Shown piece after piece: positions 5,560-46,857 of a stretch of 64,000 bases of DNA (positions within the stretch are counted from its first letter, which is position 1; every line of letters starts with the position of its first letter). A program made the translations under genes and the position numbers. The DNA is from Microbacterium endophyticum (GTDB lineage Bacteria; Actinomycetota; Actinomycetes; Actinomycetales; Microbacteriaceae), in assembly GCF_011047135.1 (NCBI RefSeq), contig NZ_CP049255.1:1550001-1614000 (forward strand), given 5' to 3'. The notes below the pieces were generated by a model. The model did not search any database. It was not told the origin of the DNA and was given only the letters and a program-made list of their open reading frames with translations.

Positions 5560-6528
5560 ATGAGTAAACAGATCGGTATACTTTCGGGATTGCTGACGGT
5601 GACGGCATCCGCGGCTTTCGTGCTCACGTGGAGCTCGGGTTTTCTTGTTGCGGCGATCGGCACTGTCGACGTCGCGCCGACGACGCTACTGGTGTGGCGG
5701 TTCGTGCCGCTCGCTGTGGTCTTGCTTGTCTTGACGGTGGCGACCGGTGCCTTTCGGGGTGTGAGCCGTGGCGACCTGCGAAGCCAGGTCATCATCGGGT
5801 TTTTCGCGCAATTCGGTTACTGCGCATGTGTGTACGGGTCGATCGCTGTCGGCATCACGACGGGCACCACGGCGCTCATTGATGCTGTTCAGCCGCTGGT
5901 TGTCGCCACCCTAGTTGGGCCCTTGTTGGGTTTGCGGGTGCGCGGCGCGCAGTGGATCGGACTCGGGGTTGGCGCGGTAGGTGTGGTGTTGGTCGTGCAG
6001 TCGCAGGTTGGTGGATCGGATGCCGCACCTATCGCGTACCTCTTGCCAGCGCTTGCGATGGTGTGCCTGATCGCTGGCACGTTCGTTGAGCGGCGTACGC
6101 AAAATCAGCCGCCTGTGCTTGTGACCTTGACGGTGCACGTGACGGTGACGGCGGTGGCGTTGACCGCGATTGCAGTGGCGACGGGCACTCTTGTGCCGCC
6201 GGCATCCGTTTCGTTCTGGGTCGCGACAGCTGTTGCAGCCCTTTCGCCAACGCTTGCTGCGTACGGGCTGTATTGGTGGTTACTTCGACGCATCGGCGTG
6301 ACGGCACTGAATGCGCTGCTCTTTCTCGTCGCTCCGACAACAGCGCTCGCCGGGGCTGTGCTGCTCGGCGAGCCGCTCACTCTGCTGACGCTCGCTGGCT
6401 TCGTGCTTTGCGGCTCGGGCGTTGCTGTCGTCTTGGTGAGTGAGTCGCGTGCGGCGGTTTTGGCTCGCGTCACGCATCGCTCAGATACACACGCAACCGA
6501 TAGTCAGGCGCTGAGCTTCCACAGCTGA
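5560..6528 (+). CDS. EamA/DMT family transporter
   Basis: 322 residues starting MSKQIGILSG. The frame is open further upstream, but that part would run through the tetR gene; the ATG at 5560 fits a TATAGT -10 seven bases before it. About ten hydrophobic segments in two repeated halves identify a drug/metabolite exporter of the EamA type (RhaT/YdcZ superfamily) in the cytoplasmic membrane. The substrate cannot be read from sequence. It is divergent from tetR and probably repressed by it. The last 25 bp overlap the 3' end of the DUF222 gene on the other strand. Confidence 0.88.
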   Translation: MSKQIGILSGLLTVTASAAFVLTWSSGFLVAAIGTVDVAPTTLLVWRFVPLAVVLLVLTVATGAFRGVSRGDLRSQVIIGFFAQFGYCACVYGSIAVGITTGTTALIDAVQPLVVATLVGPLLGLRVRGAQWIGLGVGAVGVVLVVQSQVGGSDAAPIAYLLPALAMVCLIAGTFVERRTQNQPPVLVTLTVHVTVTAVALTAIAVATGTLVPPASVSFWVATAVAALSPTLAAYGLYWWLLRRIGVTALNALLFLVAPTTALAGAVLLGEPLTLLTLAGFVLCGSGVAVVLVSESRAAVLARVTHRSDTHATDSQALSFHS

Positions 6529-7934
6529 GGGTCAAACCTGCGCCTGCCGCCGATGCGCGGAGTTCTCCCCGGGTCGATATGCGGCGGTGGAACGAACCAC
6601 ACGGTTCCGGCAGTCGGGTGGACCTTGGGCGGCCGCTCGATTCGTATCTTCCACCCTTCGTCGTGCATGCGGTGGTGGCATGCAGTGCACAGCAGGATGC
6701 CGTTGTCGAGATTGGTCGTGCCGCCATCTCGTGACCACCATTTGAGGTGATGGGCCTCGGTGAACTGGGGCGGGAGGTGGCAAAAGGCACAGCCGCCGTC
6801 ACGTTCGACGAGCGCGAGGCGCTGTGACCGGGTGAAGTTGCGCTTCGCGCGGCCCCAATCAAGCACTTCGCTGTCGGTGCCGAGAACGCACGGAATGATC
6901 TCGCCGTTCGCTGCCATCCGCCGGGCGGTTGCGGCATCGATGGGCTGTTCGATTCCGTCGATTGTGGCAACTCCGCTGCCCGATTCAAGTGCTTCAACAG
7001 CTATGCGCACCACAACCGTCGTCGTTGCGAGTGGTAGTTCGCTGCGATCGCAGCCGAGTCCGTGCGCGCACAGGGCTGAGAGCGCATCGGCGCGCAGCTG
7101 GGCGAGCGAGCGTGTTTCTTCCGCAATCGCGCCGCTTTCGGCCTGACCTTCCGAGGCGCCGTGAGCGGGGGCACCTTCCGCGGCCATTCCCCGTTGGTTG
7201 TGCCCGCGGCTCGTGCGCAATTGCTGCGTTACGATTCCCTCGATTGCTGCCACAACGGGTGCGCCCGACTCGGGATCGAGCCGCGCATCAATCAAGATCA
7301 TCCCCGAGGCATCGTGCCTGATCTTCACCGAGCGCTCGCCATGAAGTTCGGTCACCGCAGGCTCAAGCCCGTCGGGGTCTAGGTGCGCTTCTGCTCGGCG
7401 CAGGACGGCATTCAGCTCATCAAGCGTGAGCCGGGTCGCCTGCGTGGTGATTACACGCTCCGCTTCGTCGCGCAATGTGGCGGAGACGCGCATCGCAATG
7501 CGGTTCAGCATCGCAACGATTGCTGCCGCGGCGCACACGCTGATCAAGCCCCGCGAAACCGATGCTGCGACGTGGGGACGCTGTGCGGGCGCCGACTGGC
7601 CAGAGAGAAGCGTGCGCTCACGACTGGCTTCACCCACATGAATGAGTCGATGCGCGTCTCCCGTGTGACCACCGGTTGCAGCCGCGATGAGTTTGGCAGG
7701 CGAGCGGTGCCCAGTCTTTCTGGCAAGTCCTTCTTTGCCGAGCTCGGGGCGCGAACGCGAAGATATCTCGGCGGCAACCCGCATATGAAGACCATCGAGC
7801 TGGCGGCGCATGGCGGAGAGCTTCTCGTTCACACTGAGCAGGCCGGCATCCGTCATGCTGTTTACGTCGCCCGAATCCCAGGCATGAGCCAGCGCTGCGA
7901 GTGTGGCAGCAAGGGATTCCGTTGGTCTTTGCAT
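6504..7934 (-). CDS. DUF222 and HNH endonuclease domain protein (13E12 repeat family)
   Basis: 476 residues. Most of the N-terminal 370 residues are the DUF222 region; the C terminus has an HNH nuclease core: CAFCHLPPQFTEAHHLKWWSRDGG, then NGILLCTACHHRMH, with two CxxC zinc pairs. The fold predicts a DNA-nicking or cleaving nuclease; the biological role of this multicopy actinobacterial family is not settled. A second family member lies at 18516-19862. Upstream there is a near-match to the actinobacterial LexA box (7957-7970). TTAGAT lies 6 nt before the ATG and no Shine-Dalgarno is present, suggesting a leaderless mRNA. Confidence 0.9.
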   Translation of the reverse strand: MQRPTESLAATLAALAHAWDSGDVNSMTDAGLLSVNEKLSAMRRQLDGLHMRVAAEISSRSRPELGKEGLARKTGHRSPAKLIAAATGGHTGDAHRLIHVGEASRERTLLSGQSAPAQRPHVAASVSRGLISVCAAAAIVAMLNRIAMRVSATLRDEAERVITTQATRLTLDELNAVLRRAEAHLDPDGLEPAVTELHGERSVKIRHDASGMILIDARLDPESGAPVVAAIEGIVTQQLRTSRGHNQRGMAAEGAPAHGASEGQAESGAIAEETRSLAQLRADALSALCAHGLGCDRSELPLATTTVVVRIAVEALESGSGVATIDGIEQPIDAATARRMAANGEIIPCVLGTDSEVLDWGRAKRNFTRSQRLALVERDGGCAFCHLPPQFTEAHHLKWWSRDGGTTNLDNGILLCTACHHRMHDEGWKIRIERPPKVHPTAGTVWFVPPPHIDPGRTPRIGGRRRFDPQLWKLSA

Positions 7935-10475: not shown

Positions 10476-12038
10476 TCAGCCCGCCGCGACCAACTCCGCA
10501 CCGCGCTCCGCGATTGCGACGGTCGGCGCCTGGGTATTGGCCGTCGGGATGGTCGGCATGACCGAGGCATCCGCGATCCACAGGCCCGAGAGCCCGCGTA
10601 CGCGAAGCTCGGGGTCGACAACCGCGTCGTCGTCGGTGCCGATGCGGGCTGTGCCGGAGCAGTGAAAGAAGGTTCCGATGTTTTCCCGCACAAACCGCAC
10701 GCGCTCGTCGCGAGAGAGCCCAGCCACGGGTGTGATCGGCCCCTCGGCAAGCTCCGCGTAGGCGGACGTCGCGACGAGGTCTTGCGCGGCATCCAATGCT
10801 TCGACCATCGCTCCGAGATCCTTTGGATCAGCGAGGTAGTTCGGCTGAAAGTCGGCGGGCACATCGGGGTCGGCAGATCGCGAGCGCACCCACCCGACAC
10901 TTCGCGAACCGTAGAGCCCGGGAACCAGGGCGAACACGCGATTGCCCGACAGATCGTGCGCTGCATGCAGGGCGTCATCGCCGCGTGAGCCGTGAGCAAT
11001 GACAGTGTGCAGATCGGGCCCAGCTTCGGCAAAAGAGCTTCGCCAATTCACCATTGCGCCACCACCGTTGCCGAGCACGGGTCCGAGGTCTGCGCACGCG
11101 CGAAAATTAACGCCGAGAATCAGCGGGTGGTCTTGAAAGTTCTCGCCCACGCCCGGCAGGTCGTGCACGGGACGGATGCCGGCCGCACGCAGCCGCTCAG
11201 AATCTCCGATGCCCGAGCGCTGCAACAGCCGCGGCGTATCGAGCGCTCCGGCGGCGAGCGCGGTGCGGGTCGCTGTCGTCGTGACAAGCTCTCCGTCGAC
11301 AACGTGTCGCACGCCCAATACGTCGTCGCCCGAAAGCACGAGCGTGTGCACGGCGCTACCGACGAGCACGTCGAGGTTTGCCCGCCCGAGCGCAGGCTCA
11401 AGATACGCGCGCGCCGTGCTCCATCGTTCGAACGAGCCGTCGGCGTTTTCTACCGCGTTGTAGTCAGGGTAGACAGCGCCCTCATTAGAAGCAGCGTTGG
11501 CATCGTCGATCACCGGGATGCCGCGCGCGCCGGCGGCGTCGATGAGCGCATGAGCGATCGGGTGCACGCGGGTCAAAGGCGCGACACGCATGGGCCCAGC
11601 GACGCCGCGAAATGCAGGGTCGCCGCCGGCGCGTGCCTCGGAGCGGCGAAAGTAGGGCAGCAGTTCGTCGTAGCTCCAGCCGATGGCCCCGGCATCCGCC
11701 CACGCGTCGTAATCGGCGCGCGCACCGCGATACCAGAGCATCGCGTTGGTGCTCGAAGAGCCGCCGAGCACTTTGCCGCGCGGCACGGCAATAGCCCGCC
11801 CGAGCACGTGATCGGTCGGGGTCGCGTGGTAGCCATAGTCGTAGGGTCCGCCGATCATGGCGTCCCAGCGTGCGGCATCCAAGACTTCGCGCAGGCCGCG
11901 GTGGTCGGGTCCGCTTTCGATCAGCAGCACTCGAGCGGCGGAGTCTTCCGACAGGCGTGCCGCGAGTACGCAGCCAGCCGCGCCGCCGCCGACGACGAGA
12001 AAGTCGTAGGCGGCAGCGGGGGCTGAAACGAGCGGCAT
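10476..12038 (-). CDS. GMC family FAD-dependent oxidoreductase
   Basis: 520 residues. The N terminus has the dinucleotide-binding motif FLVVGGGAAGCVLAARL followed by an acidic strand end (LLIESGP); GGSSSTNAMLWYRG is the GMC signature 1 region; TFFHCSGTARIG supplies the active-site histidine; and the C terminus (GLWIADASVMPTIPTANTQAP) is the usual GMC ending. Family members oxidise alcohols such as choline, glucose or isethionate. It is the last gene of a five-gene operon and overlaps the ThDP beta-subunit gene by 1 bp. In this context it could oxidise an alcohol precursor of the aldehyde used by the operon dehydrogenase. Confidence 0.92.
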   Translation of the reverse strand: MPLVSAPAAAYDFLVVGGGAAGCVLAARLSEDSAARVLLIESGPDHRGLREVLDAARWDAMIGGPYDYGYHATPTDHVLGRAIAVPRGKVLGGSSSTNAMLWYRGARADYDAWADAGAIGWSYDELLPYFRRSEARAGGDPAFRGVAGPMRVAPLTRVHPIAHALIDAAGARGIPVIDDANAASNEGAVYPDYNAVENADGSFERWSTARAYLEPALGRANLDVLVGSAVHTLVLSGDDVLGVRHVVDGELVTTTATRTALAAGALDTPRLLQRSGIGDSERLRAAGIRPVHDLPGVGENFQDHPLILGVNFRACADLGPVLGNGGGAMVNWRSSFAEAGPDLHTVIAHGSRGDDALHAAHDLSGNRVFALVPGLYGSRSVGWVRSRSADPDVPADFQPNYLADPKDLGAMVEALDAAQDLVATSAYAELAEGPITPVAGLSRDERVRFVRENIGTFFHCSGTARIGTDDDAVVDPELRVRGLSGLWIADASVMPTIPTANTQAPTVAIAERGAELVAAG

Positions 12039-12652
12039 CAGTTGTGCTCGCTCGGACCCATGATCGTGATGCCCTCGGTCTTCTCAACGTGACGCACGAA
12101 GATGTACTTGTCTTCGCGTCCGTCCGAGTGCTTGCGCTTGATGCCCGGCTCGAGAATGCCATCGGTTTTGGCGACCACGATGTACGGCTCGGATGCCTTC
12201 AGCCCAGCTTCGCAGTGAGCGTCGAACTCTTCGAGGGTCTCCGCCGTGAACGCCTTGTCAACGCCGGCACCGCGCGCGATGGCGGCGAGATTCACACGCC
12301 CACCCTTGGTGTGCGTGCGCGGGCCACCGATCGACTGGTACTGCTCGTTGTCCCACACGACGACGAACAGGTTCTTCGGCTGCTCGTTGGCAAGCGTTGC
12401 CAAGATACCGAGGTTGAACAGCAGCCCACCGTCGGTGTCGAGCGAGACGATGCGACGGTTAAGGAGACCAACCGAAAGACCGAATGCCTCGGGGGTGACG
12501 CATCCGAGCTGCTGCTGAAAGAGACTCGCGTCGCGCATGTGCGGCGCCGCGTTGTACCACTCGTCGACAGCGCCGCCGAGAGAGAGGATGACGAGTTCGT
12601 TCTCGAGGCGTGCCCCGAGGAGCTTCATGGCTTCAAACCGGCTGTAACTCAT
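12038..12652 (-). CDS. ThDP-dependent decarboxylase, ThDP-binding (beta) subunit, ComE/sulfopyruvate-decarboxylase-like
   Basis: 204 residues. The pattern LGGAVDEWYNAA, then LDTDGGLLFNLGILATLAN and NLFVVVWDNEQYQSIGGP, then THTKG, is that of the ThDP (PP) domain of two-subunit sulfopyruvate/phosphonopyruvate decarboxylases. The usual GDG of the ThDP motif reads TDG. The gene overlaps the alpha subunit gene by 4 bp, as usual for such heterodimers. It probably decarboxylates a 2-oxo acid to an aldehyde, which would feed the aldehyde dehydrogenase of the operon. The substrate is not defined by sequence. Confidence 0.82.
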   Translation of the reverse strand: MSYSRFEAMKLLGARLENELVILSLGGAVDEWYNAAPHMRDASLFQQQLGCVTPEAFGLSVGLLNRRIVSLDTDGGLLFNLGILATLANEQPKNLFVVVWDNEQYQSIGGPRTHTKGGRVNLAAIARGAGVDKAFTAETLEEFDAHCEAGLKASEPYIVVAKTDGILEPGIKRKHSDGREDKYIFVRHVEKTEGITIMGPSEHN

Positions 12653-13149
12653 CGGACGAGGTCCCCTCCCAGAACAACTGCTGCGTGGTAATACGAGGCG
12701 TACGCAGTTTCATACGCGTTGAAGACTGCCTGCTCGATCTTGTCGACGTCGTGCACGATCGTGTACGGCGTGCGCAGGGTCTTCAGCAGCGGCTCCATCG
12801 TGATGCCGTGCGGGATCGCCCACCAGTTGTTTTCGCCCATTTCACCGCGGTAGCTCATGATCATGACAACCGGAATGCCGGCGCCAAGGCCCATGCGGGC
12901 GAGGTGCTCGGTGGCAGCGCGAAGCCCGGAGTTCTCCATGATGAGCACAGCGCGCTGACCCGAAAGAAACACGCCTCCGGCGATTGCGGCGCCTTCGCCC
13001 TCGTTCGTCACGGGAATCGTGCGAATGTCGGGGTCGGCATCGAGGGCGGGGTAGAGCTCTTTCAAGAGCGAGTCGGGCAGGTAGGTGGCGACGGTGACGC
13101 CGGCACGTTTGAGCCCGCGAATCACCGCCTCAACAGCGTCGGCTCTCAT
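12649..13149 (-). CDS. ThDP-dependent decarboxylase, PYR-domain (alpha) subunit, ComD-like
   Basis: 166 residues. It contains the PYR domain: TYLPDSLLKELYPAL, then IPVTNEGEGAAIAGGVFLSG with the conserved glutamate that activates the ThDP aminopyrimidine, and ENSGLRAATEHLARMGLGAG followed by IPVVMIMSYRGEMGE. This matches the alpha subunit of sulfopyruvate decarboxylase (ComD) and related enzymes. It overlaps the monooxygenase gene upstream and the beta subunit downstream by 4 bp each, so the subunits are translationally coupled. Confidence 0.82.
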   Translation of the reverse strand: MRADAVEAVIRGLKRAGVTVATYLPDSLLKELYPALDADPDIRTIPVTNEGEGAAIAGGVFLSGQRAVLIMENSGLRAATEHLARMGLGAGIPVVMIMSYRGEMGENNWWAIPHGITMEPLLKTLRTPYTIVHDVDKIEQAVFNAYETAYASYYHAAVVLGGDLVR

Positions 13150-14528
13150 GCCAGAACTCCTGTTTCTTGGGCGCTCGCCGACAGTCGGTGAGCACGGTGG
13201 GTGGGGGAAAGACGCGGTGCGCCGCTGAAGCGCTCGCGAAGAGTGGGCGAACCAGCGGATGCCTCGGCCCGGCCACGTGCGGCAAGGATCGGCAGCACCA
13301 ACTCGATGAAGTCGCGGTAAGCGGCCGGGCCACCGAATGTGGGTTCGAGCATGATGCCGTCGATACCCGAGCCGTCGACGATGGCTTCGATCTCATCGGC
13401 GACCTGCTCCGGAGTGCCAGTGACCTGGAAACCGCGAATCGCTTTCGTGCGGAACTGATCGAGCACCGCCCGCACGCGCACGTCAGGGTCTTTCTTGGCG
13501 TAGCGATCAACGAGGGTCTGACCGAGATCGGTCTTGATGTCGGTGAGCTTCGTTTCGGGGTCAAACCCGGTGAGGTCGATGCCGGTGATGCCCGCAAACA
13601 TGACGGCTGCGTCGTCGAGGCCGAGCAGGTCCTCATATTCAGCGCGCTTGGCGCGAGCTTCTTCTTCGGTCTTGGCAACGGTCACGGTCATTCCCGTGAC
13701 GACCTTGACGTCAGCGGCATCCCGACCCTGCAGTTCTGCCTGCGCGCGGATGTCGGCAACGTGACCGGCCGCGCCTGCGATCGTCTGACCCTGAATGAAG
13801 ACAGCCTCGGCGTTTCGGGCGGCATACGCGCGGCCACGGTCGCTCGTTCCCGCTTGAAACAGCACGGGTGTGCGCTGCGGGGTCGGCGGAACAGCGAAGA
13901 TGCCGTGCGATCGCTGGTAGGTGCCGTCGACCTCGATGCGGTGGAGTTTTACGGGATCGGCGTACATACCGGTTTTGCGGTCGCGCACTTCGGCATCGTC
14001 GTCCCAACTGTGCTCCCAGAAGCGCAGGCACGTGTCGAGAAAGTCGTCGGCCGCGTCGTAGCGCTGGTCGTGGGTGAGCGTCTCGGTGACGCCGAAGAGA
14101 TCGTCGGTTGTCTTCTGCGAACTGCCCGTGACGATGTTCCAGCCGATGCGCCCACCCGTGAAGCGGTCGAGGGTCGCAAAGCGACGCGCGAGCGCATAGG
14201 GGCGCTCGACGGTCGTCGGCGAAGTCACCACAAACCCGAGGTTTTCGGTTTCGTGCGCGAGAGTCGCGATCGCGAGCATCGGGTCGAGCGCGGGAAACTG
14301 GATGCCGTGGGCGGCAACTTCTTCGGGCATCCGTCCGTCAAGAGTCGCGTAGCCATACGTGTCGGCGAAGAAGAGAAAATCGAACCCGGCCTGGTCGAGC
14401 TCTTTCGCGAGCCCTACCCAGTAGTCGAGTTGGTCCCAATCGTCGCCGCGGCCCTCGGGGTGCGTCCACGTGGGCATGCCGTTGCTCGGATTCATCATCT
14501 CGAACACGCCAAAAATAATGCGACTCAT
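13146..14528 (-). CDS. NtaA/SnaA/DszA family FMN-dependent monooxygenase
   Basis: 460 residues from ATG 14528 (MSRIIFGVFEMMNPSNG), which overlaps the stop of the aldehyde dehydrogenase gene (ATGA). It has the bacterial luciferase-like TIM barrel with family marks: WVGLAKELDQAGFDFLFFAD, RFATLDRFTGGRIGWNIVTG and PVLFQAGTSDRGRAYAARNA. Members (nitrilotriacetate, dibenzothiophene sulfone and dimethyl sulfide monooxygenases) use FMNH2 from a separate reductase and cleave C-N or C-S bonds. No reductase gene is in the window. The C terminus carries about 40 extra residues rich in Arg and Ser. Confidence 0.9.
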   Translation of the reverse strand: MSRIIFGVFEMMNPSNGMPTWTHPEGRGDDWDQLDYWVGLAKELDQAGFDFLFFADTYGYATLDGRMPEEVAAHGIQFPALDPMLAIATLAHETENLGFVVTSPTTVERPYALARRFATLDRFTGGRIGWNIVTGSSQKTTDDLFGVTETLTHDQRYDAADDFLDTCLRFWEHSWDDDAEVRDRKTGMYADPVKLHRIEVDGTYQRSHGIFAVPPTPQRTPVLFQAGTSDRGRAYAARNAEAVFIQGQTIAGAAGHVADIRAQAELQGRDAADVKVVTGMTVTVAKTEEEARAKRAEYEDLLGLDDAAVMFAGITGIDLTGFDPETKLTDIKTDLGQTLVDRYAKKDPDVRVRAVLDQFRTKAIRGFQVTGTPEQVADEIEAIVDGSGIDGIMLEPTFGGPAAYRDFIELVLPILAARGRAEASAGSPTLRERFSGAPRLSPTHRAHRLSASAQETGVLA

Positions 14529-16036
14529 ATGACCATCACCACTGTCTTCGTCTCGAGATAGTTTTCGAGGCCCTGAGCGCCGTTCTCGTAGCCCCAGCCC
14601 GACTCTTTGTGGCCACCCTTTGGAAGCTCGGGGCCAAGGAACGAGTGGCAGTTGACCCACACGGTTCCGGCTTCGAGTGCCGAGGCGACGCGATGTCCGT
14701 TGCTGAGGCCCTCGGTCCAGACGCTCGCGGCGAGACCGTAGTCGCTGTCGTTTGCCCAGCCGACAACCTCATCGAGATCATCGAACGGTGTGACGACGGC
14801 CACGGGGCCGAAGATCTCCTCGCGCATGAGGCGCATGTCGGCGCGCACACCGGTCAACACGGTGGGGGAGAAGAATGTATCCGCCGGTCCGCTGAGCTTG
14901 CCGCCCGTGACGACGGTTGCGCCTTCGACCCGGCCCTCCGAAATGAAGTCAGAAACGCGCTCTGCCTGCGCCCGACTTACGAGGGGCCCAAGGTCGGCGG
15001 CGCTGTCGAGGCCGTGCCCGAGGCGCAGCTTGTCACCCGCAGCCGCCATGCCGTCGACGACGTCTTGATACACGTCGCGGTGCGCGTAGATGCGAGCGCT
15101 CGCAACACACACCTGGCCGCCATTGTCGAAGATTCCGCGCGAGACTCCCTCGATCGCGGCAGGAAGGTCTGCGTCGGGCATGATGATCGACGGTGACTTT
15201 CCGCCGAGTTCGAGCGTGAGCCGCTTCAAGCTGCCGGCGGCCGAACTCACGAGTCGCTTGCCGACAGCGGTTGAGCCGGTGAATGCGAGCTTGTCGACAC
15301 CGCGATGATCGGCGAGAGCTTGCCCCGCCTCCGTGCCGTAGCCGGTGAGGATATTGACGACACCATCGGGAACACCGGCTTCTTGCAACAGGCGACCGAG
15401 GTAGAGCGCCGTGAGCGGAGTGTTTTCGGCCGGTTTCAGGACGATCGTGCAGCCAGCTGCGAGGGCCGGCGCGAGCTTCATCGCCGTCATGATGAGAGGT
15501 GAGTTCCACGGCACAACCGCTGCGACGACGCCGACGGGTTCGCGCCGCGTATAGGCGAAGACCTCTTTACCGGGAGGGGTGCGCGAAAGCGAGGTGGGAA
15601 TCGTCTCGCCGGTGATCTTGGTCGGCCACCCGGCGTAGTAGCGGAACTGGCTGATCGCGGCGGGCACTTCGCCAAAGAGAGAGGTGCGCAGGTTCTTGCC
15701 CTGATCGAGAGTTTCGAGTTCTGCGAGGTCCTCAAGGTGCTCTTGCATGACGTCGGCGATACGCCAGAGCAAAGCGCTGCGGGCGGCGGGTGTCATCTTT
15801 GCCCACGCCGGGGAGATCAGCGCTGTGCGCGCCGCGGATACGGCTTTGTCGGCATCCGCTTCTCTCGCTCGAGCGACGTGCGCGATAACAGCGCCCGTGG
15901 CTGGGTCGATAGTCGAAAAGCGCTCGCCGGTGGATGCCTCAACCCATGCGCCGCCGATCAGCAGCTTTCCCGGGTCGTCAGCGAGAAACTGTGACACGCG
16001 CTCGCGCAGCGCGATGTTCCCGATCTCGATCGTCAT
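14525..16036 (-). CDS. Aldehyde dehydrogenase family protein
   Basis: 503 residues, first gene of the operon. The NAD(P) site (TGSTAVGKRLV), the general base glutamate (LTLELGGKSP) and the catalytic cysteine (NGGQVCVASARIY) are all present, with the usual C-terminal EIFGPVAVVTPF and GHKESGWGYENGAQGLENYLE. It oxidises an aldehyde to the acid with NAD(P). TAGCAT lies 6 nt before the ATG with no ribosome-binding site, so the mRNA is probably leaderless. A perfect inverted repeat sits just upstream of that -10 box. Likely substrate is the aldehyde made by the ThDP decarboxylase or the GMC enzyme. Confidence 0.93.
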   Translation of the reverse strand: MTIEIGNIALRERVSQFLADDPGKLLIGGAWVEASTGERFSTIDPATGAVIAHVARAREADADKAVSAARTALISPAWAKMTPAARSALLWRIADVMQEHLEDLAELETLDQGKNLRTSLFGEVPAAISQFRYYAGWPTKITGETIPTSLSRTPPGKEVFAYTRREPVGVVAAVVPWNSPLIMTAMKLAPALAAGCTIVLKPAENTPLTALYLGRLLQEAGVPDGVVNILTGYGTEAGQALADHRGVDKLAFTGSTAVGKRLVSSAAGSLKRLTLELGGKSPSIIMPDADLPAAIEGVSRGIFDNGGQVCVASARIYAHRDVYQDVVDGMAAAGDKLRLGHGLDSAADLGPLVSRAQAERVSDFISEGRVEGATVVTGGKLSGPADTFFSPTVLTGVRADMRLMREEIFGPVAVVTPFDDLDEVVGWANDSDYGLAASVWTEGLSNGHRVASALEAGTVWVNCHSFLGPELPKGGHKESGWGYENGAQGLENYLETKTVVMVI

Positions 16037-18386: not shown

Positions 18387-18490
18387 GCGATCGTTCGCGG
18401 GATGTGGTGTCGCATCCGTTTCTCCCCAAAATTTTTTCAAGAAAGTTATCCACACCGGGGCTTTTCGGGCTGATTTGGCATGGTCAATGT

Positions 18491-18504
18491 CGGAGGTATG
18501 TTCG
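18491..18504. promoter_or_regulatory. LexA/SOS-box-like motif upstream of second DUF222 gene
   Basis: CGGAG-GTAT-GTTCG compares with CGAAC-N4-GTTCG (right half perfect; left half matches 2-3 bases). It is directly followed by GATACT, a -10-like box 6 nt before the ATG at 18516. The same half-site occurs before the first DUF222 gene. Confidence 0.35.
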
Positions 18505-18515
18505 ATACTTGTGTC

Positions 18516-19862
18516 ATGTCAGAGAACGAAGCCGAGCAGCAAGAAGCAGAAGCGCACGAGCTTTCTGAGTCTGTGGCGACGTTGATTTCGTTCGATGAAC
18601 AGATCGCTCAGATGCAGGCGGCACGCGCCGAGGTTCTCGCGAACATGGGGCGGATCGCGCTCGCGCAAATTCGACGGATGACATCACGAGACTCACGGGA
18701 TCGGGAAATTCCGATGCGGGCCGTCGCAGCAGAAGTTGCGGCGGCACTGCGGTTGTCGGATCGCACCGCGCAGGCACGGATCGACGACGCGATCGAAGTG
18801 ACTGGGGCGTACCCAGAGACGTTCGCGTCGTGGAGTGCCGGGCATGTCTCGGAACGGCATGTGCAAGAAGTACTGCGGGCGGGTGAAAACCTGACGGATG
18901 CTGCGGCCAAAGCCCAGTACGACCACGAGGTGGTGGCGGTCGCTGAAGTGGAAACCCCGGGGAGGTTGCGGGGGTTCGCTGCGGCCCTGGCCGAGAAAGC
19001 ACAACCGCGGACGCTTCAGGAACGCTTCGATGATGCGAACGCGACCCGCACGGTGCGCCTGTTTGACCTGGCCGATGGGATGAGTTCACTCAACGCAGTA
19101 TTGCCGTCGGTGCAGGCGCATGGGATTTTCAACCGGCTCACCCAGCAGGCGCGGGCGTTGAAAGACTTCCAGGCGGGACGGTCGGACTACGGTACGAAGC
19201 TTCACACCGAGGACGAGCCGGTGGATGATCGGCGGACGACGGATCAGATCCGCGCCGACCTGTTCTCCGACATGTTGTTGACGTCGGTTCCGAGCCTTGA
19301 CCCGCTCGCGGGGGATGACTGCGGCGGGCTGGGAGCGATCAAGGCGATTGTGCAGGTCACGGTGCCCGCGACGACGCTCGCGGGCACGAGTTCTACACCC
19401 GCGGACCTGTCCGGCTTGAGTCTTGTCGATCCGGAGAGTGCACGGCGCCTCGCGGGTACTGCGCCGGGGTGGGATCGCGTGTTCACGCATCCCGTCACCG
19501 GAACCGTGGTCTCGGTTGACCGGTACCGGCCGAACGATCAGTTGAAGCGGCAACTCAGGGCGCGAGACCAGCACTGCAGATTCGTGGGATGCCGCATGCC
19601 CACCCACCGGTGCGATATTGATCACACAGTCGATGCGGCCCTCGGCGGACCAACACATCAGCACAATCTCGCGCATCTGTGTCGACGACACCACAGTTTG
19701 AAACACGCGAGCCGGTGGTCCGTGAAACAGCGCGGTGATGGGGTCCTCGAGTGGACATCACCGACCGGGCGAAGCTACACCGACAAGCCACCCGGGGTCG
19801 CATTCGAACCCGATTCGCTCCTTGCTCGCGGGGAAAGCAGTCGTCAGTCGTCGGCGGGATGA
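18516..19862 (+). CDS. DUF222 and HNH endonuclease domain protein (13E12 repeat family), second copy
   Basis: 448 residues from ATG 18516 (MSENEAEQQEAEAHELSESV); ATGs at 18480 and 18498 are in frame but the first lies upstream of the promoter-like elements and the second directly abuts GGAGGT. The DUF222 region covers about residues 20-340; the C-terminal HNH nuclease is CRFVGCRMPTHRCDIDHTVD, then LGGPTHQHNLAHLCRRHHSL, with the HNH histidines and zinc cysteines in place. It is divergent in sequence from the first copy at 6504-7934, so not a recent duplication. Preceded by an SOS-like half-site. Confidence 0.88.
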   Translation: MSENEAEQQEAEAHELSESVATLISFDEQIAQMQAARAEVLANMGRIALAQIRRMTSRDSRDREIPMRAVAAEVAAALRLSDRTAQARIDDAIEVTGAYPETFASWSAGHVSERHVQEVLRAGENLTDAAAKAQYDHEVVAVAEVETPGRLRGFAAALAEKAQPRTLQERFDDANATRTVRLFDLADGMSSLNAVLPSVQAHGIFNRLTQQARALKDFQAGRSDYGTKLHTEDEPVDDRRTTDQIRADLFSDMLLTSVPSLDPLAGDDCGGLGAIKAIVQVTVPATTLAGTSSTPADLSGLSLVDPESARRLAGTAPGWDRVFTHPVTGTVVSVDRYRPNDQLKRQLRARDQHCRFVGCRMPTHRCDIDHTVDAALGGPTHQHNLAHLCRRHHSLKHASRWSVKQRGDGVLEWTSPTGRSYTDKPPGVAFEPDSLLARGESSRQSSAG

Positions 19863-21206: not shown

Positions 21207-21806
21207 TCAGGGGGCGACCGCGTAGACGAGCAGAATCGTCGCACCATCCGGCCCCGGCAACGACCAGCGATTGCGATATGCACCCGGATGCGACAGCGCA
21301 TCTCCCGGGCCAAGCTCCCAGTCGCCACGACCATCGATTGTGACTATGACCGAGCCTTCGACCACATACACGGTCAGCTCGCCATCGGACTCGAACCAAT
21401 CGCCCACGTACGGGCCATGCTCGATTCGATACTCCTGCACGGTCGCGATATGGGCCGACCCCGACGAGATGACGCGGCTACTCGCGGCATCATCACCTTC
21501 CGCGATCGGTACGCGTTTTCCTTCTTCGCGCCGGGTGAGCGTGATGGGCTCAGGCTCTGGCATTGCCGGTAGCAGCGACGAAGGAGAGATGCCGAGAACC
21601 TTCGCTAGGCGAAAGAGAGTGACGACCGACGGCATCGTATTGCCGCTCTCGATCTGACTCAGAAACGGCTGGCTGATTTCGGCAGCGGTGGCAAGTGACC
21701 GCATAGAGAGCTTGCGTGCCGTGCGCGCGGCACGGATCTCGCGCCCCAGCGAGACTCCGATCAGCGCATCAGTTGCTGAGGCATCCGCTGTGTTCGGGTC
21801 GGTCAT
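21207..21806 (-). CDS. XRE family regulator with C-terminal cupin domain
   Basis: 199 residues. An XRE helix-turn-helix spans about residues 20-78 (LGREIRAARTARKLSMRSLA, then TAAEISQPFLSQIESGNTMP), and a double-stranded beta-helix cupin domain occupies about 105-195 (VGDWFESDGELTVYVVEGSV, then VTIDGRGDWELGPGDALSHP). This arrangement is that of PuuR/SutR-like regulators that sense small metabolites. Its ATG overlaps the stop of the DivIVA-like gene (ATGA), so the two are co-translated. Target and ligand unknown. Confidence 0.88.
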   Translation of the reverse strand: MTDPNTADASATDALIGVSLGREIRAARTARKLSMRSLATAAEISQPFLSQIESGNTMPSVVTLFRLAKVLGISPSSLLPAMPEPEPITLTRREEGKRVPIAEGDDAASSRVISSGSAHIATVQEYRIEHGPYVGDWFESDGELTVYVVEGSVIVTIDGRGDWELGPGDALSHPGAYRNRWSLPGPDGATILLVYAVAP

Positions 21807-23080: not shown

Positions 23081-23238
23081 TCGGGGCAGCATTCCTTCGT
23101 GTGGGAGGTCAAGCTGTGCCGCACAGCACTGCGAGCTGTCCCGCAGGCGAGTGGCGACTGGCGCTCGCGGAACACACTGCAACTCTGCCAGACCTCACCC
23201 GCGCTCCACTACAGCGTCCGCTGAAGATGTTCGATGAC

Positions 23239-26004
23239 TCAGCTCGATGGTGCGGAATCACCAACCTGAGTGAGACGCCATACCCGGTCGCGGGAGAAGG
23301 GCTGCTCGAACGGACGTGCCCCGATCGCGCGCGCGATCGCGTTACCGATCGCGGGAGCCACCGGGTTATAGGGCGACTCGCTCATCGACTTCGCACCGAA
23401 CGGGCCAAGCTCGTCGCTCGTCTCGGCGAAATACACCTCGGTGTCGGGAACGTCGGCGAACTGCGGTACCCGGTACGTGCGGAACACCGCGTTCGTCACC
23501 TGTCCTTCGTCAATCATGACCTCTTCGTAGAGAGCACTGCCGATGCCCTGCGCGGCTCCACCTTCAACCTGACCGCGGCACTGCGCCGGGTTGAGCACGA
23601 CGCCGGCATCAGCCGCTTGAATCGACTGCAGAACACGCACGATACCCGTCTCAACGTGAACCGCGACCCGCACGGCATGCACGTTGAAAGCGATCGAACG
23701 CAGATCGCCGAACTCGCTCCCGTCCGCGGTGAGCCCGTCCGCGGTGAGCTGGTCGGCAGGAGCCGCAGCAATGATCTCTGCGAAAGTAACCAGGCGAGTG
23801 GGCGTCAGGATGCCGTCGGCCTGAAGCAACGCAGCGCTCGCGGCAGTGTTGGTCACGGCGGCGGCGATGCGGAGCATCCGCTCTTTCAGCCTGAGACACG
23901 CGGCGTACAGAGCCTTGCCAGCGACCGTGATTCCAGCGGACGCGAATGCTCCGGTGTCGTGAGCGACGGCATCCGTGTCTGAGCTCCAGAGCGAAACCCG
24001 GTCGCCGGTTGCTTCGAGAACGCTTGACGCAATCTGCCGGTGCACCGTCGTGGTGCCGTTGCCGAATTCTGCTGTGCCCACGCCGAGTAGGTAGGTGCCG
24101 TCGGAGCGGAGTGTTGCCGTCGTGTGTGAAATGTGCCCGCGGGGCGCAAGGGTTGCGATCATCGCGACCGCCATTCCCTCGCCGACATGCCACCCCTCTG
24201 GCGCGGCAACACCGTTACCGCGACGGAGTGCGGCCTCTGCAAGATCGAGACACTGATCAAGACCGTAACTGCCCCAAATGAGATCTTCTTCGTATTTGTC
24301 TTCATCAGGATGCAGCGGGTCACCCTCGCGCACGGCGTTGAGGCGGCGGAGCTCGAACGGGTCGATGTTCAGGCGTTGCGCGAGCATGTCCATGGCGGAT
24401 TCGACTCCGAGGATCACCTGCCCGAGCCCGTAGCCCCGGAACGCACCGGAAGGCACATTGTTCGTATACACAACCTCGGCATCGAGCTGCTTGGCAGGCA
24501 CCCGGTACAGCGTCGTCGATTCGGCGAGAGAGTGAAACAGCACACCGCGTGAGTGATTACCGTACGCGCCGGTATCGCTCAACACATCGACCTTCATCGC
24601 CGTGAGTAAGCCGGCGGAGGTCGCGCCCAGTGTCACCTTCACCCGCATAGGGTGACGAAGCGCAGCACGCTGGAACTGGTCGGTGCGCGAGAATTCGTAG
24701 GCGACAGGTCGGCCTGTGCGAAGTACCGCGAGGGCGACGAGATCTTCCGTGAAGATCTCTTGCTTGCCACCGAACCCGCCGCCCACGCGTGGCGCGTAGA
24801 CGCGCACCCGGTCTTGTTCGAGGTCGAAGATGTGGCACAGCTCGTCACGCGTAAGAAACGGAACCTGCGTTGAAGATCGGATGACAAGGCGACCCTCTTC
24901 ATCGAGGTGACCCATCGCGCCGTGCGTCTCAAGCTGCGCGTGCGAGACACGCTGCGTCTGCCACGAGCCCTCAACCGTGACATCGCTCGCGGCAAAAGCT
25001 GCGGCAACGTCGTCACCGGAGTCCTCGTGCACGCTCAGGATGACATTGCGGTGCGCTTCGTCGACGCGCTCTTCTGGTGTGCGCTCCGGGTGCAGCAAGG
25101 GTGCGCCCGGAAGCCGTGCAGCTTCGGGGTCGAAAACGGCAGGAAGAACCTCGTATTCCACCTGGACGAGCCGGCACGCGGCTTCGGCGGCTGCCGCGGT
25201 CTCGGCGACAACAGCGACAACGCGCTGCCCGATATGGCGCACGACATCGTCGAGCATGCGGGTGTCATCGGGGTCATCTTCGCGGTGCTCGTGGCGGCCG
25301 GTCGAGTAACGCTTGTCTGGCACGTCTTCGTGAGTGAAAACAGCGACGACACCGGCGACGGCTTTGGCGGCGGTCGTGTCGATCGAAATGATGCGCGCGT
25401 GTGCGTGCGGTGAAGAAAGCACACGGAGGGTGAGAGCCGCCGTGATCGGTTCGTCGAACGTGTAGGGTTCACGGCCCTGCACGACGCGACGCGCAGCCTC
25501 CGGAGACACGGAATGCCCGATGCCCGATGCTGTCGGCTCCGCCGGTATCGCACCACCCGTCGTTCGCACCGGCCCCAGAACGGATGCCGTTATCGCCGCG
25601 CGGATCGGACGGTACCCCGTGCAGCGGCACAGGTTGCCCTTCATCCGCCGGTCGAGATCATCGAGATCGCTCTCACAGAGCGTTGATGCCGTGACGCTCA
25701 TACCGGGCGTGCAGAAACCGCACTGAAACCCGAAGTGGTTTACGAGCGCCTCCTGCACGGGATGAAGCTCATCTGCGGGCGCAAGCCCGGCAGCGGTCGT
25801 TACCGACCGTCCCTCTACGCGCACGGCCGGAATGATGCACGAGTGCACCGGGTCACCGTCGAGCAGTACTGAGCACGCGCCGCAGTCGCCGGCATCGCAC
25901 CCCTTCTTCACCTCGGTGTGTCCGTTCTCGCGCAGCAGGGTGCGAAGGCTCTGCCCCGCCCGCGGGTCTGCATCGACGGGTGCGCCATTGACGTCGAACT
26001 TCAT
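23239..26004 (-). CDS. Molybdenum hydroxylase (xanthine dehydrogenase family), fused [2Fe-2S] and molybdopterin subunits
   Basis: 921 residues from ATG 26004, overlapping the FAD subunit stop (ATGA). Residues 1-150 are the small subunit: plant-ferredoxin type cysteines C36, C41, C44, C56 and the second cluster C95, C98, C126, C128. From about 190 the large Mo subunit follows: VGGGFGGKQEIFTEDLVALA, PSGAFRGYGLGQV, EFGNGTTTVHRQIA, and GPFGAKSMSESPYNPVAPAI, whose glutamate is in the position of the catalytic base. It forms a cytoplasmic Mo/Fe-S/FAD enzyme with the upstream gene. Xanthine or another N-heterocycle is likely, but substrate is not fixed by sequence. Confidence 0.9.
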   Translation of the reverse strand: MKFDVNGAPVDADPRAGQSLRTLLRENGHTEVKKGCDAGDCGACSVLLDGDPVHSCIIPAVRVEGRSVTTAAGLAPADELHPVQEALVNHFGFQCGFCTPGMSVTASTLCESDLDDLDRRMKGNLCRCTGYRPIRAAITASVLGPVRTTGGAIPAEPTASGIGHSVSPEAARRVVQGREPYTFDEPITAALTLRVLSSPHAHARIISIDTTAAKAVAGVVAVFTHEDVPDKRYSTGRHEHREDDPDDTRMLDDVVRHIGQRVVAVVAETAAAAEAACRLVQVEYEVLPAVFDPEAARLPGAPLLHPERTPEERVDEAHRNVILSVHEDSGDDVAAAFAASDVTVEGSWQTQRVSHAQLETHGAMGHLDEEGRLVIRSSTQVPFLTRDELCHIFDLEQDRVRVYAPRVGGGFGGKQEIFTEDLVALAVLRTGRPVAYEFSRTDQFQRAALRHPMRVKVTLGATSAGLLTAMKVDVLSDTGAYGNHSRGVLFHSLAESTTLYRVPAKQLDAEVVYTNNVPSGAFRGYGLGQVILGVESAMDMLAQRLNIDPFELRRLNAVREGDPLHPDEDKYEEDLIWGSYGLDQCLDLAEAALRRGNGVAAPEGWHVGEGMAVAMIATLAPRGHISHTTATLRSDGTYLLGVGTAEFGNGTTTVHRQIASSVLEATGDRVSLWSSDTDAVAHDTGAFASAGITVAGKALYAACLRLKERMLRIAAAVTNTAASAALLQADGILTPTRLVTFAEIIAAAPADQLTADGLTADGSEFGDLRSIAFNVHAVRVAVHVETGIVRVLQSIQAADAGVVLNPAQCRGQVEGGAAQGIGSALYEEVMIDEGQVTNAVFRTYRVPQFADVPDTEVYFAETSDELGPFGAKSMSESPYNPVAPAIGNAIARAIGARPFEQPFSRDRVWRLTQVGDSAPSS

Positions 26005-26825
26005 CGCGTCGCCTCCAGATCGCGCCGAATATTCTGTGCGAGCTCGAGGCTCACGCCGCGTCGCCAGTCGGCGGATCCGAGCGGGTCTGTATAGAAGTTC
26101 GGCGCGGATGCGATGGCATCCGTCAGAACGTCTTGTGGGGGAAGCGCATCGAAGCGCACGACATAAGGCGTCAGCGTCGCCGCTGTGAGGCCAAACATCG
26201 CCGAGCCGTCTTCGTCGATGCGACCGGTGATGACACAGCCGGATCGACCAAGCTCCGCCAGTGCGATCTTGCGAAGGAAGGCCGTCGAGCGAAGTGCGTG
26301 AGTGGGAAGCTCGATAGCGCGCAACACCTCGCCGCGGGACAGGTTGTTCTCGGCGTTGCCCGTGATGATGTCGGCAACGGGTTCGCGGCGCTCGCCGCCG
26401 TCGGGTTGCCAAATCCACGCGACACCGTCGAGAGCCACCGCGAGCGAGATCATGGCGCCGGCGGCAAACGACCGACACACGTTGCCGCCGACGGTTGCGG
26501 TATTCCAAATCTTGAATGACGCGAGAAGTGCGTTCGCGGCGTCGGGCACCAGCGACAGCGCTGTCCATTCGGTGGGGGCTACTGTGGCATCCGTCGCCCA
26601 GGCCAGGAGGCGCGCGATCGTGCAGGTTGCCGAAATTCGCAGCCCATCGGGCAGCAGCTCGATGTCGGGCCAGGCCATTGTCGTGAGGTCAACGAACCCG
26701 GTCGTGTCGGGCTGCGGCTCACTCATGCTCCACGTGCCACCGGCGATGAAGTCCTCGCCGGGTGCGAGCGTCAGTGCGTCCCGCGATCGTGCGGCACGGA
26801 AGCTCGTGACGGTGTTGATGTCCAC
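26001..26825 (-). CDS. FAD-binding subunit of molybdenum hydroxylase (CoxM/XdhB type)
   Basis: 274 residues from GTG 26825, preceded by AAGGAGG with good spacing; a longer frame to 26855 ignores this site. The FAD pyrophosphate-binding loop (FIAGGTWSM), the second motif (NTATVGGNVCRSFAAGAM) and the C-terminal CO dehydrogenase flavoprotein region (FYTDPLGSADWRRGVSLELA) are visible. It passes electrons from the Fe-S clusters to NAD or another acceptor. First gene of a two-gene operon with a candidate operator just upstream. Confidence 0.9.
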   Translation of the reverse strand: MDINTVTSFRAARSRDALTLAPGEDFIAGGTWSMSEPQPDTTGFVDLTTMAWPDIELLPDGLRISATCTIARLLAWATDATVAPTEWTALSLVPDAANALLASFKIWNTATVGGNVCRSFAAGAMISLAVALDGVAWIWQPDGGERREPVADIITGNAENNLSRGEVLRAIELPTHALRSTAFLRKIALAELGRSGCVITGRIDEDGSAMFGLTAATLTPYVVRFDALPPQDVLTDAIASAPNFYTDPLGSADWRRGVSLELAQNIRRDLEATR

Positions 26826-26842
26826 GGATGCCTCCTTCCGGT

Positions 26843-26863
26843 GATGTTCACACAATTAACATC
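26843..26863. promoter_or_regulatory. Operator candidate before molybdenum hydroxylase operon
   Basis: GATGTT (26843-26848) and AACATC (26858-26863) form a perfect 6-bp inverted repeat with an AT-rich 9-bp centre (CACACAATT), 18 bp upstream of the GTG start on the minus strand. The rest of the 203-bp gap up to 27028 shows nothing further. Confidence 0.4.
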
Positions 26864-28671: not shown

Positions 28672-29769
28672 TTATGCCTCTTGCGGAATGGTGCACGCCT
28701 CTTCAGTATTTGCGCTCTGCGCTCGTCGATGAAGCGGTCCGTCGAGTACCCGCAACGGTCGCGTGCTTGCGTCATAACGGGCCGCGACGATCTCGGCGAG
28801 GGCCGCAATCGCAACCTCATCGGGGCGTGATCCGCCGAGATCGAGGCCGAGGGGAGAATGAAGGCGAGCGAGGGATGCCGCGTCAACACCCGCCTGCAAC
28901 AGCAGCGTCGTGCGACGCGCCACAGTGGCCCGAGCTCCGAGAGCGCCGACGAAGCCAACGGGGAGATCTAGCGCGACGCGCAACGCTGGCACATCGAGGC
29001 GTTCATCGTGAGTGAGTACGCACACCGCGGTGCGCGCGTCGATGTCGCCATCGATGTCGCTCAACCGCGCCAGATATTCATGAGGCATCTCCGCCACGAG
29101 CTCGGTCGCTTCTGGGAAACGCTCTGCTGTGATCAGCAGCGGCCACGCGTCGCACACCGTTACGGCCCACCCCGAAGCCGCAGCAACGCGACAGAGGGCG
29201 GCGGCGTGTTCTCCGGCACCAAGAATAATGAGGCGAGGTTTGGGCGCCACCGAGATGAGAAGTACATCGTCGCCGTCATATGCGGCGGTAAGCATGTGGG
29301 TTTCGCGCAACCGAAGAGCGCGCTCGCTTTGCGTGCTGGCTGCGAGTTCTTCGGGGGCCACGAGACGACCTATGGCCGGGCCGGAGGTGACAAGACTCAC
29401 GGAGACCGGCCGGTCGGCAGCGGCCAGCTCGAGTGCGGCGAGGGTTGCGGCATCCGTTGGTTCGATCAGGGAAGAAACGACGTCGACCGCACCGCCGCAT
29501 GCGAGTCCGGCTGCGTGAGCGACATCGTCACTAAACCCAAAGGATGCCGTGCGGCCGACGCCACTCGCGAGTGCTTCGGCGCCCAGCATGACCGAGTCGC
29601 CCTCGACACATCCGCCTGAGATCGAACCGATCACGCGACCCGATTCGGTCAGCGCCATCGCCGCGCCAGCACCGCGCGGAGCGCTCCGCGCGACCCGGGT
29701 GACGGTAATCACGGCGACGCGTTCACCCGCATGCAGTGCCGGGAGGAGAGCGGTGGCAAGCTCGAGCAT
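28672..29769 (-). CDS. XdhC/CoxI family molybdenum hydroxylase maturation factor
   Basis: 365 residues from ATG 29769; TAGCGT lies 6 nt before the ATG on the minus strand, so the mRNA is probably leaderless. The N-terminal XdhC domain has ITVTRVARSAPRGAGAAMAL and GRVIGSISGGCVEGDSVMLG; the C-terminal Rossmann part has PRLIILGAGEHAAALCRVAA and the family ending RLHSPLGLDLGGSRPDEVAI. XdhC proteins bind and sulfurate the Mo cofactor and insert it into the apo-hydroxylase. This supports the hydroxylase gene 3 kb away being functional. Confidence 0.88.
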   Translation of the reverse strand: MLELATALLPALHAGERVAVITVTRVARSAPRGAGAAMALTESGRVIGSISGGCVEGDSVMLGAEALASGVGRTASFGFSDDVAHAAGLACGGAVDVVSSLIEPTDAATLAALELAAADRPVSVSLVTSGPAIGRLVAPEELAASTQSERALRLRETHMLTAAYDGDDVLLISVAPKPRLIILGAGEHAAALCRVAAASGWAVTVCDAWPLLITAERFPEATELVAEMPHEYLARLSDIDGDIDARTAVCVLTHDERLDVPALRVALDLPVGFVGALGARATVARRTTLLLQAGVDAASLARLHSPLGLDLGGSRPDEVAIAALAEIVAARYDASTRPLRVLDGPLHRRAQSANTEEACTIPQEA

Positions 29770-33994: not shown

Positions 33995-34012
33995 CCCTCC
34001 GTCATAGCTCGC

Positions 34013-34046
34013 AAGTGGTGTGGGCACGAAAGTGCCCACACCACTT
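34013..34046 (+). other. Intercistronic stem-loop between cebE and cebF
   Basis: AAGTGGTGTGGGCAC (34013-34027) pairs perfectly over 15 bp with GTGCCCACACCACTT (34032-34046), closed by a GAAA tetraloop (GNRA type). No T-run follows. Such hairpins after the binding-protein gene stabilise its mRNA or reduce read-through, giving more binding protein than permease. Confidence 0.9.
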
Positions 34047-34096
34047 CGGCTGCCTCACAGTGCTCGATCCCAATTCCCCCTGAAAAGAGGTGCGTC

Positions 34097-36093: not shown

Positions 36094-36122
36094 CTCTCAT
36101 TGCTCGAAAGGAAACAAACACT

Positions 36123-42890: not shown

Positions 42891-42927
42891 TTCACATCAG
42901 GCTGAAAGTTTGGTTAGGCTTGCCTAA
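42891..42927 (+). promoter_or_regulatory. Iron-responsive leaderless promoter with DtxR/IdeR-type box
   Basis: TTAGGC-TT-GCCTAA (42914-42927) is a perfect inverted repeat resembling the core of DtxR/IdeR boxes. It contains the -10 hexamer TAGGCT (42915-42920) and ends on the A of the ATG at 42927, six bases after that hexamer. TTCACA at 42891-42896 is a -35 candidate with 18-bp spacing. Confidence 0.75.
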
Positions 42928-46727: not shown

Positions 46728-46757
46728 AAATTCACACACCTTGCATTCAGGTTAAAG

Positions 46758-46776
46758 ATAGGCAAGGCTAAGCTAA
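46758..46776 (+). promoter_or_regulatory. DtxR/IdeR-type iron box
   Basis: The minus-strand reading TTAGCTTAGCCTTGCCTAT matches the DtxR consensus TTAGGTTAGCCTAACCTAA at 15 of 19 positions. It lies about 80 bp upstream of the large HtaA gene and overlaps a TAAGCT -10 candidate. Confidence 0.7.
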
Positions 46777-46857
46777 GTAAGCAGACCCTAAGTTCTGCAC
46801 ACTCCGCGTACTGAACCAGTGGCGCGGAATTTTCCCCACTCTTCAAGGAGTTTCTTC

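Follow-up and report, generated by a model that had tools for sequence, protein, structure and literature searches.

A conserved five-gene operon around a two-subunit thiamine-dependent decarboxylase in Microbacterium endophyticum, a candidate module for catabolism of fused N-heterocycles

We analyzed a 64-kb stretch of the single-contig, 2.92-Mb genome of Microbacterium endophyticum (genome positions 1550001-1614000; hereafter the window, whose own numbering is used unless stated otherwise) that carries a five-gene operon around a thiamine diphosphate (ThDP)-dependent decarboxylase. All five genes lie on the minus strand and encode, from first to last, an aldehyde dehydrogenase (ALDH; 503 residues, 14525..16036; PF00171, 569 bits), an FMN-dependent monooxygenase of the NtaA/DmoA family (LLM; 460 residues, 13146..14528; TIGR03860, 427 bits with a cut-off of 280), the N-terminal, ComD-like subunit of the decarboxylase (ThDP-N; 166 residues, 12649..13149), its C-terminal, ComE-like subunit (ThDP-C; 204 residues, 12038..12652; PF02775), and a GMC-family FAD alcohol oxidoreductase (520 residues, 10476..12038; PF00732 and PF05199). 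Successive genes overlap by 4, 4, 4, and 1 bp (ATGA three times and TGATG once), none contains an in-frame stop, and GC content at third codon positions (GC3) is 0.75-0.80. The LLM gene starts with the ATG at 14528; the mechanical list of open reading frames (ORFs) places its start at a GTG at 14660. An initial annotation had described these families as an overlapping set that acts as one coupled catabolic unit, and this description stands: the overlaps of 1-4 bp and the common strand were verified, Pfam and NCBIfam uphold all five family assignments (with LLM alone passing an NCBIfam cut-off), and the gene order is conserved in relatives. Its remark that no transporter adjoins the operon is true of the immediate neighborhood; a nitrate/taurine-class ABC transporter is located ~17-21 kb beyond the GMC end, outside the window.

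On the operon's strand, starting 5 kb beyond the ALDH gene, the window also holds a regulator and the genes of a xanthine dehydrogenase (XDH)-type molybdenum hydroxylase. The regulator is of the XRE/cupin type (199 residues, 21207..21806, minus strand; PF01381, with Cupin_2 below cut-off). The 2Fe-2S and molybdenum subunit of the hydroxylase (23239..26007, minus strand, 5' end approximate) contains the sole PF20256 match of the genome, over cut-off, at genome positions 1573446-1574225 (23446-24225 in the window), and is matched by XDH-type proteins of four other operon loci (L012, L013, L014, and L022). The FAD subunit (26001..26855, minus strand; PF00941, read from 26013) is matched in L012, L013, and L072, and an XdhC-type accessory protein for molybdenum hydroxylases follows at 28672..29769 (minus strand; PF13478 and PF02625). 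In L012, XDH-type genes, regulator, amidohydrolase, ALDH, LLM, ThDP pair, and GMC follow one another in this order, without the DNA that separates the operon from the regulator in M. endophyticum. The gene between XDH and regulator (21806-23182, minus strand) has a sub-threshold DivIVA match only; at E 1e-15, L010 has a match to it and the called ORFs of all other loci have none.

A profile of aligned ThDP-N subunits, run against named genomes, gave 125 relatives, and all counts over 80 loci below refer to the best 80 of these 125 (by record title, 62 from Alphaproteobacteria and 18 from Actinomycetota). Because presence thresholds for flanking genes were set by hand and several loci end at contig ends, absence counts over these loci are upper bounds. 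ComD identity across the 80 loci is 72-99%, the nearest named relative by operon being Microbacterium halimionae (L010, ComD 99%), and the 4-bp ComD/ComE overlap is kept in all but one (79/80). The order ALDH-LLM-ComD-ComE-GMC on one strand occurs in 14/80 loci and ComD-ComE-GMC-ALDH in 54/80, where the cases inspected have additional genes separating GMC from ALDH; ComD-ComE-GMC only is found in 8/80, and the remaining 4/80 have other arrangements. A search for conserved gene order in other genomes, as the initial annotation had suggested, finds these genes recurring in both Actinomycetota and Alphaproteobacteria, and the five-gene arrangement is more than chance.

The oxygenase of the gene set comes in two kinds. 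LLM is present in 16/18 actinobacterial and 0/62 alphaproteobacterial loci, and the catalytic part of a Rieske oxygenase in 61/62 alphaproteobacterial loci and in R. zopfii; exactly one type is found in 79/80 loci, both in 0/80, and the only locus with neither (L032) is a 6.9-kb contig. An operon core without any oxygenase was considered and rejected because the Dietzia and R. zopfii loci, in whose genomes LLM was not found at E 1e-60, both have Rieske oxygenases. The Dietzia enzyme combines Rieske and catalytic parts in one frame, and the alphaproteobacterial system is split into a 289-residue part matching VanA_C only, a separate Rieske protein, and a GST-family protein. Over its length, LLM has riboflavin lyase (5w48, 356 bits) as its nearest solved relative, followed by dimethyl-sulfide monooxygenase (299 bits), and the nearest solved relatives of the Rieske catalytic part (one sequence tested) are SxtT/SxtDIOX and NdmA/NdmB. 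Since the Ndm enzymes, like riboflavin lyase, strip a substituent from a nitrogen of a fused pyrimidine ring, we propose that the operon oxygenase would cleave a side chain at a heteroatom; the exchange of LLM and Rieske enzymes within one conserved gene set yields a sharp hypothesis on the reaction. Several carriers hold LLM paralogues with 33-52% identity. Separately, the LLM match in Blastococcus aurantiacus (L053; G681:C10:57063-58418) contains one in-frame TGA; the gene may be broken, or the frame or assembly may be at fault.

The wider company of the operon is of a purine or pterin kind. XDH-type genes lie near 65/80 loci at E 1e-20 and at least 200 residues, or near 60/80 at a minimum of 40% query coverage; they are found in 55/62 alphaproteobacterial and 5/18 actinobacterial loci, and a COG0402 deaminase (amidohydrolase) in 61/62 and 9/18, respectively. 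BMP-type ABC transporters (60/62) and adenine deaminase (42/62) are present in alphaproteobacterial loci and in none of the 18 actinobacterial ones. The XRE/cupin regulator is found in 8/18 actinobacterial loci and adjoins the operon in several relatives; none of the flanking genes looked for occurs in all 18. In two annotated clusters on rhizobial plasmids, the gene order is guaD - ring-hydroxylating oxygenase alpha - BMP ABC transporter - hypothetical - Rieske protein - GST - LysR - ComD - ComE - GMC - amidohydrolase - oxygenase alpha - molybdopterin enzyme - 2Fe-2S - ALDH. The genes that come after GMC in Dietzia resemble OHCU decarboxylase and 5-hydroxyisourate hydrolase (both read by eye); a uricase route in M. 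endophyticum was rejected, as its genome has no PF01014 match. The COG0402 deaminase of M. endophyticum (74% to the Dietzia copy) is encoded ~325 kb from the operon, among genes that resemble those for the BMP-type ABC transporter and adenine deaminase in alphaproteobacterial clusters. Across two draws of 299 Microbacteriaceae genomes, which agree wherever their members are listed and are treated as one set, ComE is present in 5/299 genomes from three genera and the deaminase in 8/299, namely all 5 ComE carriers and 3 non-carriers (hypergeometric 3e-9, a count that ignores shared ancestry). Outside the window, two adenosine-deaminase-family genes lie ~15-17 kb beyond the GMC end.

The initial annotation had linked the ThDP pair to the decarboxylation of sulfopyruvate or phosphonopyruvate in the breakdown of C2-C3 sulfonates, and a phosphonate version can be framed in the same way. 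Both subunits are distantly homologous to ComD/ComE and to phosphonopyruvate decarboxylase; however, they miss the equivalog cut-offs by wide margins. The sulfopyruvate decarboxylase models TIGR03845 and TIGR03846 give 97/148 bits for the ComD-like and 84/221.5 bits for the ComE-like subunit, the phosphonopyruvate decarboxylase model TIGR03297 gives 58.7 and 80.2 of 312.5 bits, and both subunits are below every NCBIfam cut-off listed. Nor does the company of the operon agree with this reading: what recurs is purine- and pterin-like, and by product name neither of the two annotated rhizobial clusters contains sulfonate or phosphonate genes. Sulfopyruvate decarboxylase is the annotation of a Leisingera locus whose neighborhood differs and whose proteins fall outside the supported clade of the Microbacterium pair. 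ComDE of L152 lies outside this clade and so, in a first ThDP tree in which L148 took no settled place, do the AepY rows (the final tree was built without the fused AepY rows, L148, and several rows of very high divergence). On cut-offs, neighborhood, and tree, we dropped the sulfonate/phosphonate reading, which we consider very improbable; the pair is most likely not a sulfopyruvate decarboxylase.

The top solved match of ThDP-N, by sequence and by fold, is the AzcBC alpha-imino acid decarboxylase. Beyond operon carriers, the closest ThDP relatives are four Nocardioidaceae loci (39-42%), all with XDH. These four were considered as loci of the lum type, i.e., related to the lumichrome catabolic cluster compared below, and rejected, as no frame of LumU size in the stretches scanned carries a P450 motif (L147 has a P450-like motif within a 343-residue frame); lum-type loci do exist elsewhere in the family. 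Aeromicrobium L110 was likewise rejected as a lum cluster and is an acyl-CoA locus. The ThDP-C motif is TDG where lum-type and Leisingera rows have GDG, and TDG is common to L144, L146, L147, and also L110. As an observation in its own right, the Nocardioidaceae loci L144, L146, and L147 combine a sister ThDP pair with XDH, Rieske oxygenase, ALDH, and ABC transporter genes in an uncharacterized cluster that has the appearance of an additional pathway for an N-heterocycle or an aromatic compound. XDH-type genes also adjoin one more split ThDP lineage (L113 and L168), in L113 together with ABC transporter and LigB-type dioxygenase genes.

As to ALDH and GMC, the best NCBIfam model of ALDH is the StyD phenylacetaldehyde dehydrogenase, at 570/850 bits (a second StyD-type cut-off is also missed, at 532/800), and ALDH is below every cut-off among the 25 of 43 NCBIfam families listed. 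That StyD is nearest, though below cut-off, and that split ThDP pairs are also known from loci with MmgE/PrpD and acyl-CoA genes, would suit an ordinary 2-oxo acid decarboxylation, in which an arylpyruvate or branched 2-oxo acid yields an aldehyde for ALDH and the purine-like neighbors are incidental. We find this improbable, given that purine-type genes recur in two phyla, that the often-unlinked deaminase co-occurs with the operon, and that the annotations of the two rhizobial clusters include no aminotransferase. An aldehyde intermediate, as put forward in the initial annotation, is itself plausible. GMC reaches no NCBIfam cut-off among those listed (BetA choline dehydrogenase, 332/732 bits; mycofactocin MftG, 308.5/387 bits); among its solved relatives are choline oxidase, pyridoxine 4-oxidase, and 5-hydroxymethylfurfural (HMF) oxidase, and the GMC proteins of alphaproteobacterial loci match that of M. 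endophyticum at 39-51%.

Reasoning from gene content, conservation, co-occurrence, and family relations, we infer with somewhat more confidence than doubt that a fused N-heterocycle of the purine or pteridine kind is broken down by a catabolic module whose oxidative part the operon encodes, with the ThDP pair decarboxylating a ring carboxylate. After the oxidative cleavage of a side chain by LLM (or by the Rieske system in other carriers), GMC would convert a ring-CH2OH group to the aldehyde and ALDH the aldehyde to the ring carboxylate; the ThDP pair would then release CO2 from an alpha-imino acid, whose carboxyl group sits on a ring carbon adjacent to a ring nitrogen, as LumK/LumL do in lumichrome breakdown. 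The XDH-type enzyme may hydroxylate the freed ring position, and the COG0402 deaminase may remove the ring amino group.

Our leading guess for the substrate, a tentative one, is a pterin, and the operon would then belong to a pathway for the degradation of pterins (folate fragments). The GMC relatives pyridoxine 4-oxidase and HMF oxidase oxidize ring-CH2OH groups, COG0402 pterin and isoxanthopterin deaminases are known, and xanthine oxidases 7-hydroxylate pterins. In this version, the oxygenase would free 6-formyl- or 6-hydroxymethylpterin from folate fragments, GMC and ALDH would produce pterin-6-carboxylate, and the ThDP pair would act as a pterin-6-carboxylate decarboxylase that yields pterin, the bare ring of which the XDH-type enzyme and the deaminase might attack to give isoxanthopterin and its deaminated form.

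Several observations weigh against the N-heterocycle module. For ThDP-C, RhiF outscores AzcC (45.7 vs 33.2 bits). In the ThDP tree, the Microbacterium pair groups with three uncharacterized Nocardioidaceae loci above deeper branches that lack resolution, and the LumK/LumL-type pairs are neither its nearest relatives nor its sister group, so that direct orthology with LumK/LumL, considered as a candidate, is not borne out; a joint clade of the Microbacterium pair, the Nocardioidaceae loci, and lum is neither supported nor rejected (approximately unbiased test, p 0.20). GMC was not found in the lum-type stretches searched. Likewise, queries for LumI-like and presumed LumH-like pyrimidine-ring hydrolases of the lum type gave 0/80 loci, for which reason the ring carboxylate would come more simply from GMC and ALDH. 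The gene set itself is not invariant: Elstera (L044) has no GMC, in the stretches fetched 9/18 actinobacterial loci are without the deaminase and 13/18 without XDH, and in a plasmid locus outside the 80 (L009) the ThDP pair stands next to an NMT1-type transporter without ALDH, LLM, GMC, or XDH and with no oxygenase cluster member among the called ORFs.

The deaminase, too, counts against a pterin: its best NCBIfam models are N-ethylammeline chlorohydrolase and then 5'-deoxyadenosine deaminase, among solved structures it matches a methylthioadenosine/S-adenosylhomocysteine (MTA/SAH) deaminase best, and these matches fit a nucleoside better. They favor a route in which GMC and ALDH would turn an adenosine-like nucleoside into its 5'-carboxylate by oxidizing the 5'-CH2OH group, a COG0402 or adenosine deaminase (ADA)-family enzyme would deaminate it, the oxygenase would hydroxylate the sugar (at C4' or C1') so that the base leaves, the ThDP pair would decarboxylate the resulting 2-oxo acid, and XDH would take the base. 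An ADA-family deaminase gene directly ahead of the LLM gene in Subtercola, and the BMP-type transporters and adenine deaminase of the alphaproteobacterial clusters, point the same way. However, for two relatives tested the deaminase cut-offs are missed (5'-deoxyadenosine deaminase, 299-319/522 bits; MTA/SAH deaminase, 179-195/779 bits), and His occupies the position aligned with a Glu of 4f0r, which we take to be the contact to ribose in the related TM0936, in every one of the 54 deaminase sequences (of 65) in which the motif was found. To our knowledge, an oxidative nucleoside route has no precedent, and we regard it as unlikely.

Elsewhere in the window, DUF222 proteins are encoded on either side of the operon region, at 6504-7934 (minus strand, with an HNH domain over cut-off) and 18480-19862 (plus strand). 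On the plus strand, solute-binding protein and ABC permease genes precede one for a family 1 glycosyl hydrolase (32717-37562), and HtaA-domain proteins surround a FecCD-type ABC transporter and a periplasmic binding protein in what resembles a heme-uptake operon (42927-49287).

A literature search gave no paper that we recognized as describing the five-gene set or a pterin-6-carboxylate decarboxylase, and the five genes form part of a widespread and apparently undescribed pathway. The label "sulfopyruvate decarboxylase subunit alpha," carried by many of the 120 ThDP-N relatives listed, is probably wrong for this family. If decarboxylation of a ring carboxylate is indeed the role of the pair, thiamine-dependent heterocycle decarboxylation would be a wider motif of N-heterocycle catabolism in soil, plant-associated, and marine bacteria. 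If the substrate is a pterin, the operon would provide a gene set for the ring-side breakdown of folate. One report names lumazine-6-carboxylate as a candidate intermediate of bacterial folate degradation and calls the route to it elusive in the one strain studied (PMC9513972), and because of this the pterin assignment would fill a known gap.

With ComDE and with the RhiEF/AepY phosphonopyruvate decarboxylases, the operon pair has its fold and its two-subunit (or fused) layout in common, and it differs from them in being below their family cut-offs and in its neighborhood. AzcB/AzcC, a Streptomyces alpha-imino acid decarboxylase according to its PDB titles (9u8q/9u8r/9u8s), beyond which a literature search gave nothing, shows 28% identity in the fold alignment and ranks below RhiF for the C-subunit. 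The riboflavin lyase/monooxygenase RcaE (5w48), although the closest solved relative of LLM, is a homologue only. The methylxanthine demethylases NdmA/NdmB, with SxtT/SxtDIOX, are solved relatives of the alphaproteobacterial Rieske subunit that replaces LLM, the alphaproteobacterial form being split.

The fullest comparison is with lumA-Y of Nocardioides simplex, a catabolic cluster for lumichrome (riboflavin), for which thiamine-dependent heterocycle decarboxylation was reported as new in 2025. In that report, LumT and LumN oxidize a hydroxymethyl group to a carboxyl group, the hydrolase LumM removes the ring amino group, and LumK/LumL then decarboxylates a quinoxaline carboxylate ahead of the xanthine oxidase LumJ (PMC12746152). 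The operon carriers differ in having GMC together with LLM or a Rieske oxygenase, purine-type deaminases, and transporters, and the annotations of the two rhizobial clusters show no P450. Four lum-type loci that we checked, with P450 and Rieske genes called from motifs in open frames, have XDH, a split ThDP pair, a COG0402-like hydrolase (27-28% to the operon-associated enzyme), and an ALDH (39-41% to that of M. endophyticum). Like LumK/LumL, with two subunits of ~20 and 23 kDa, the ThDP pair consists of two small proteins (166 and 204 residues) from adjacent genes, and the company of XDH, deaminase-type hydrolase, and ALDH is found in most alphaproteobacterial and part of the actinobacterial loci; in M. 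endophyticum, XDH lies within the window and the deaminase ~325 kb off. The two systems have in common a split ThDP decarboxylase, a xanthine-oxidase-type hydroxylase, a ring-amino hydrolase, hydroxymethyl-oxidizing enzymes, and a Rieske oxygenase, which in lum make up one catabolic cluster for a fused N-heterocycle, as the operon and its company may do.

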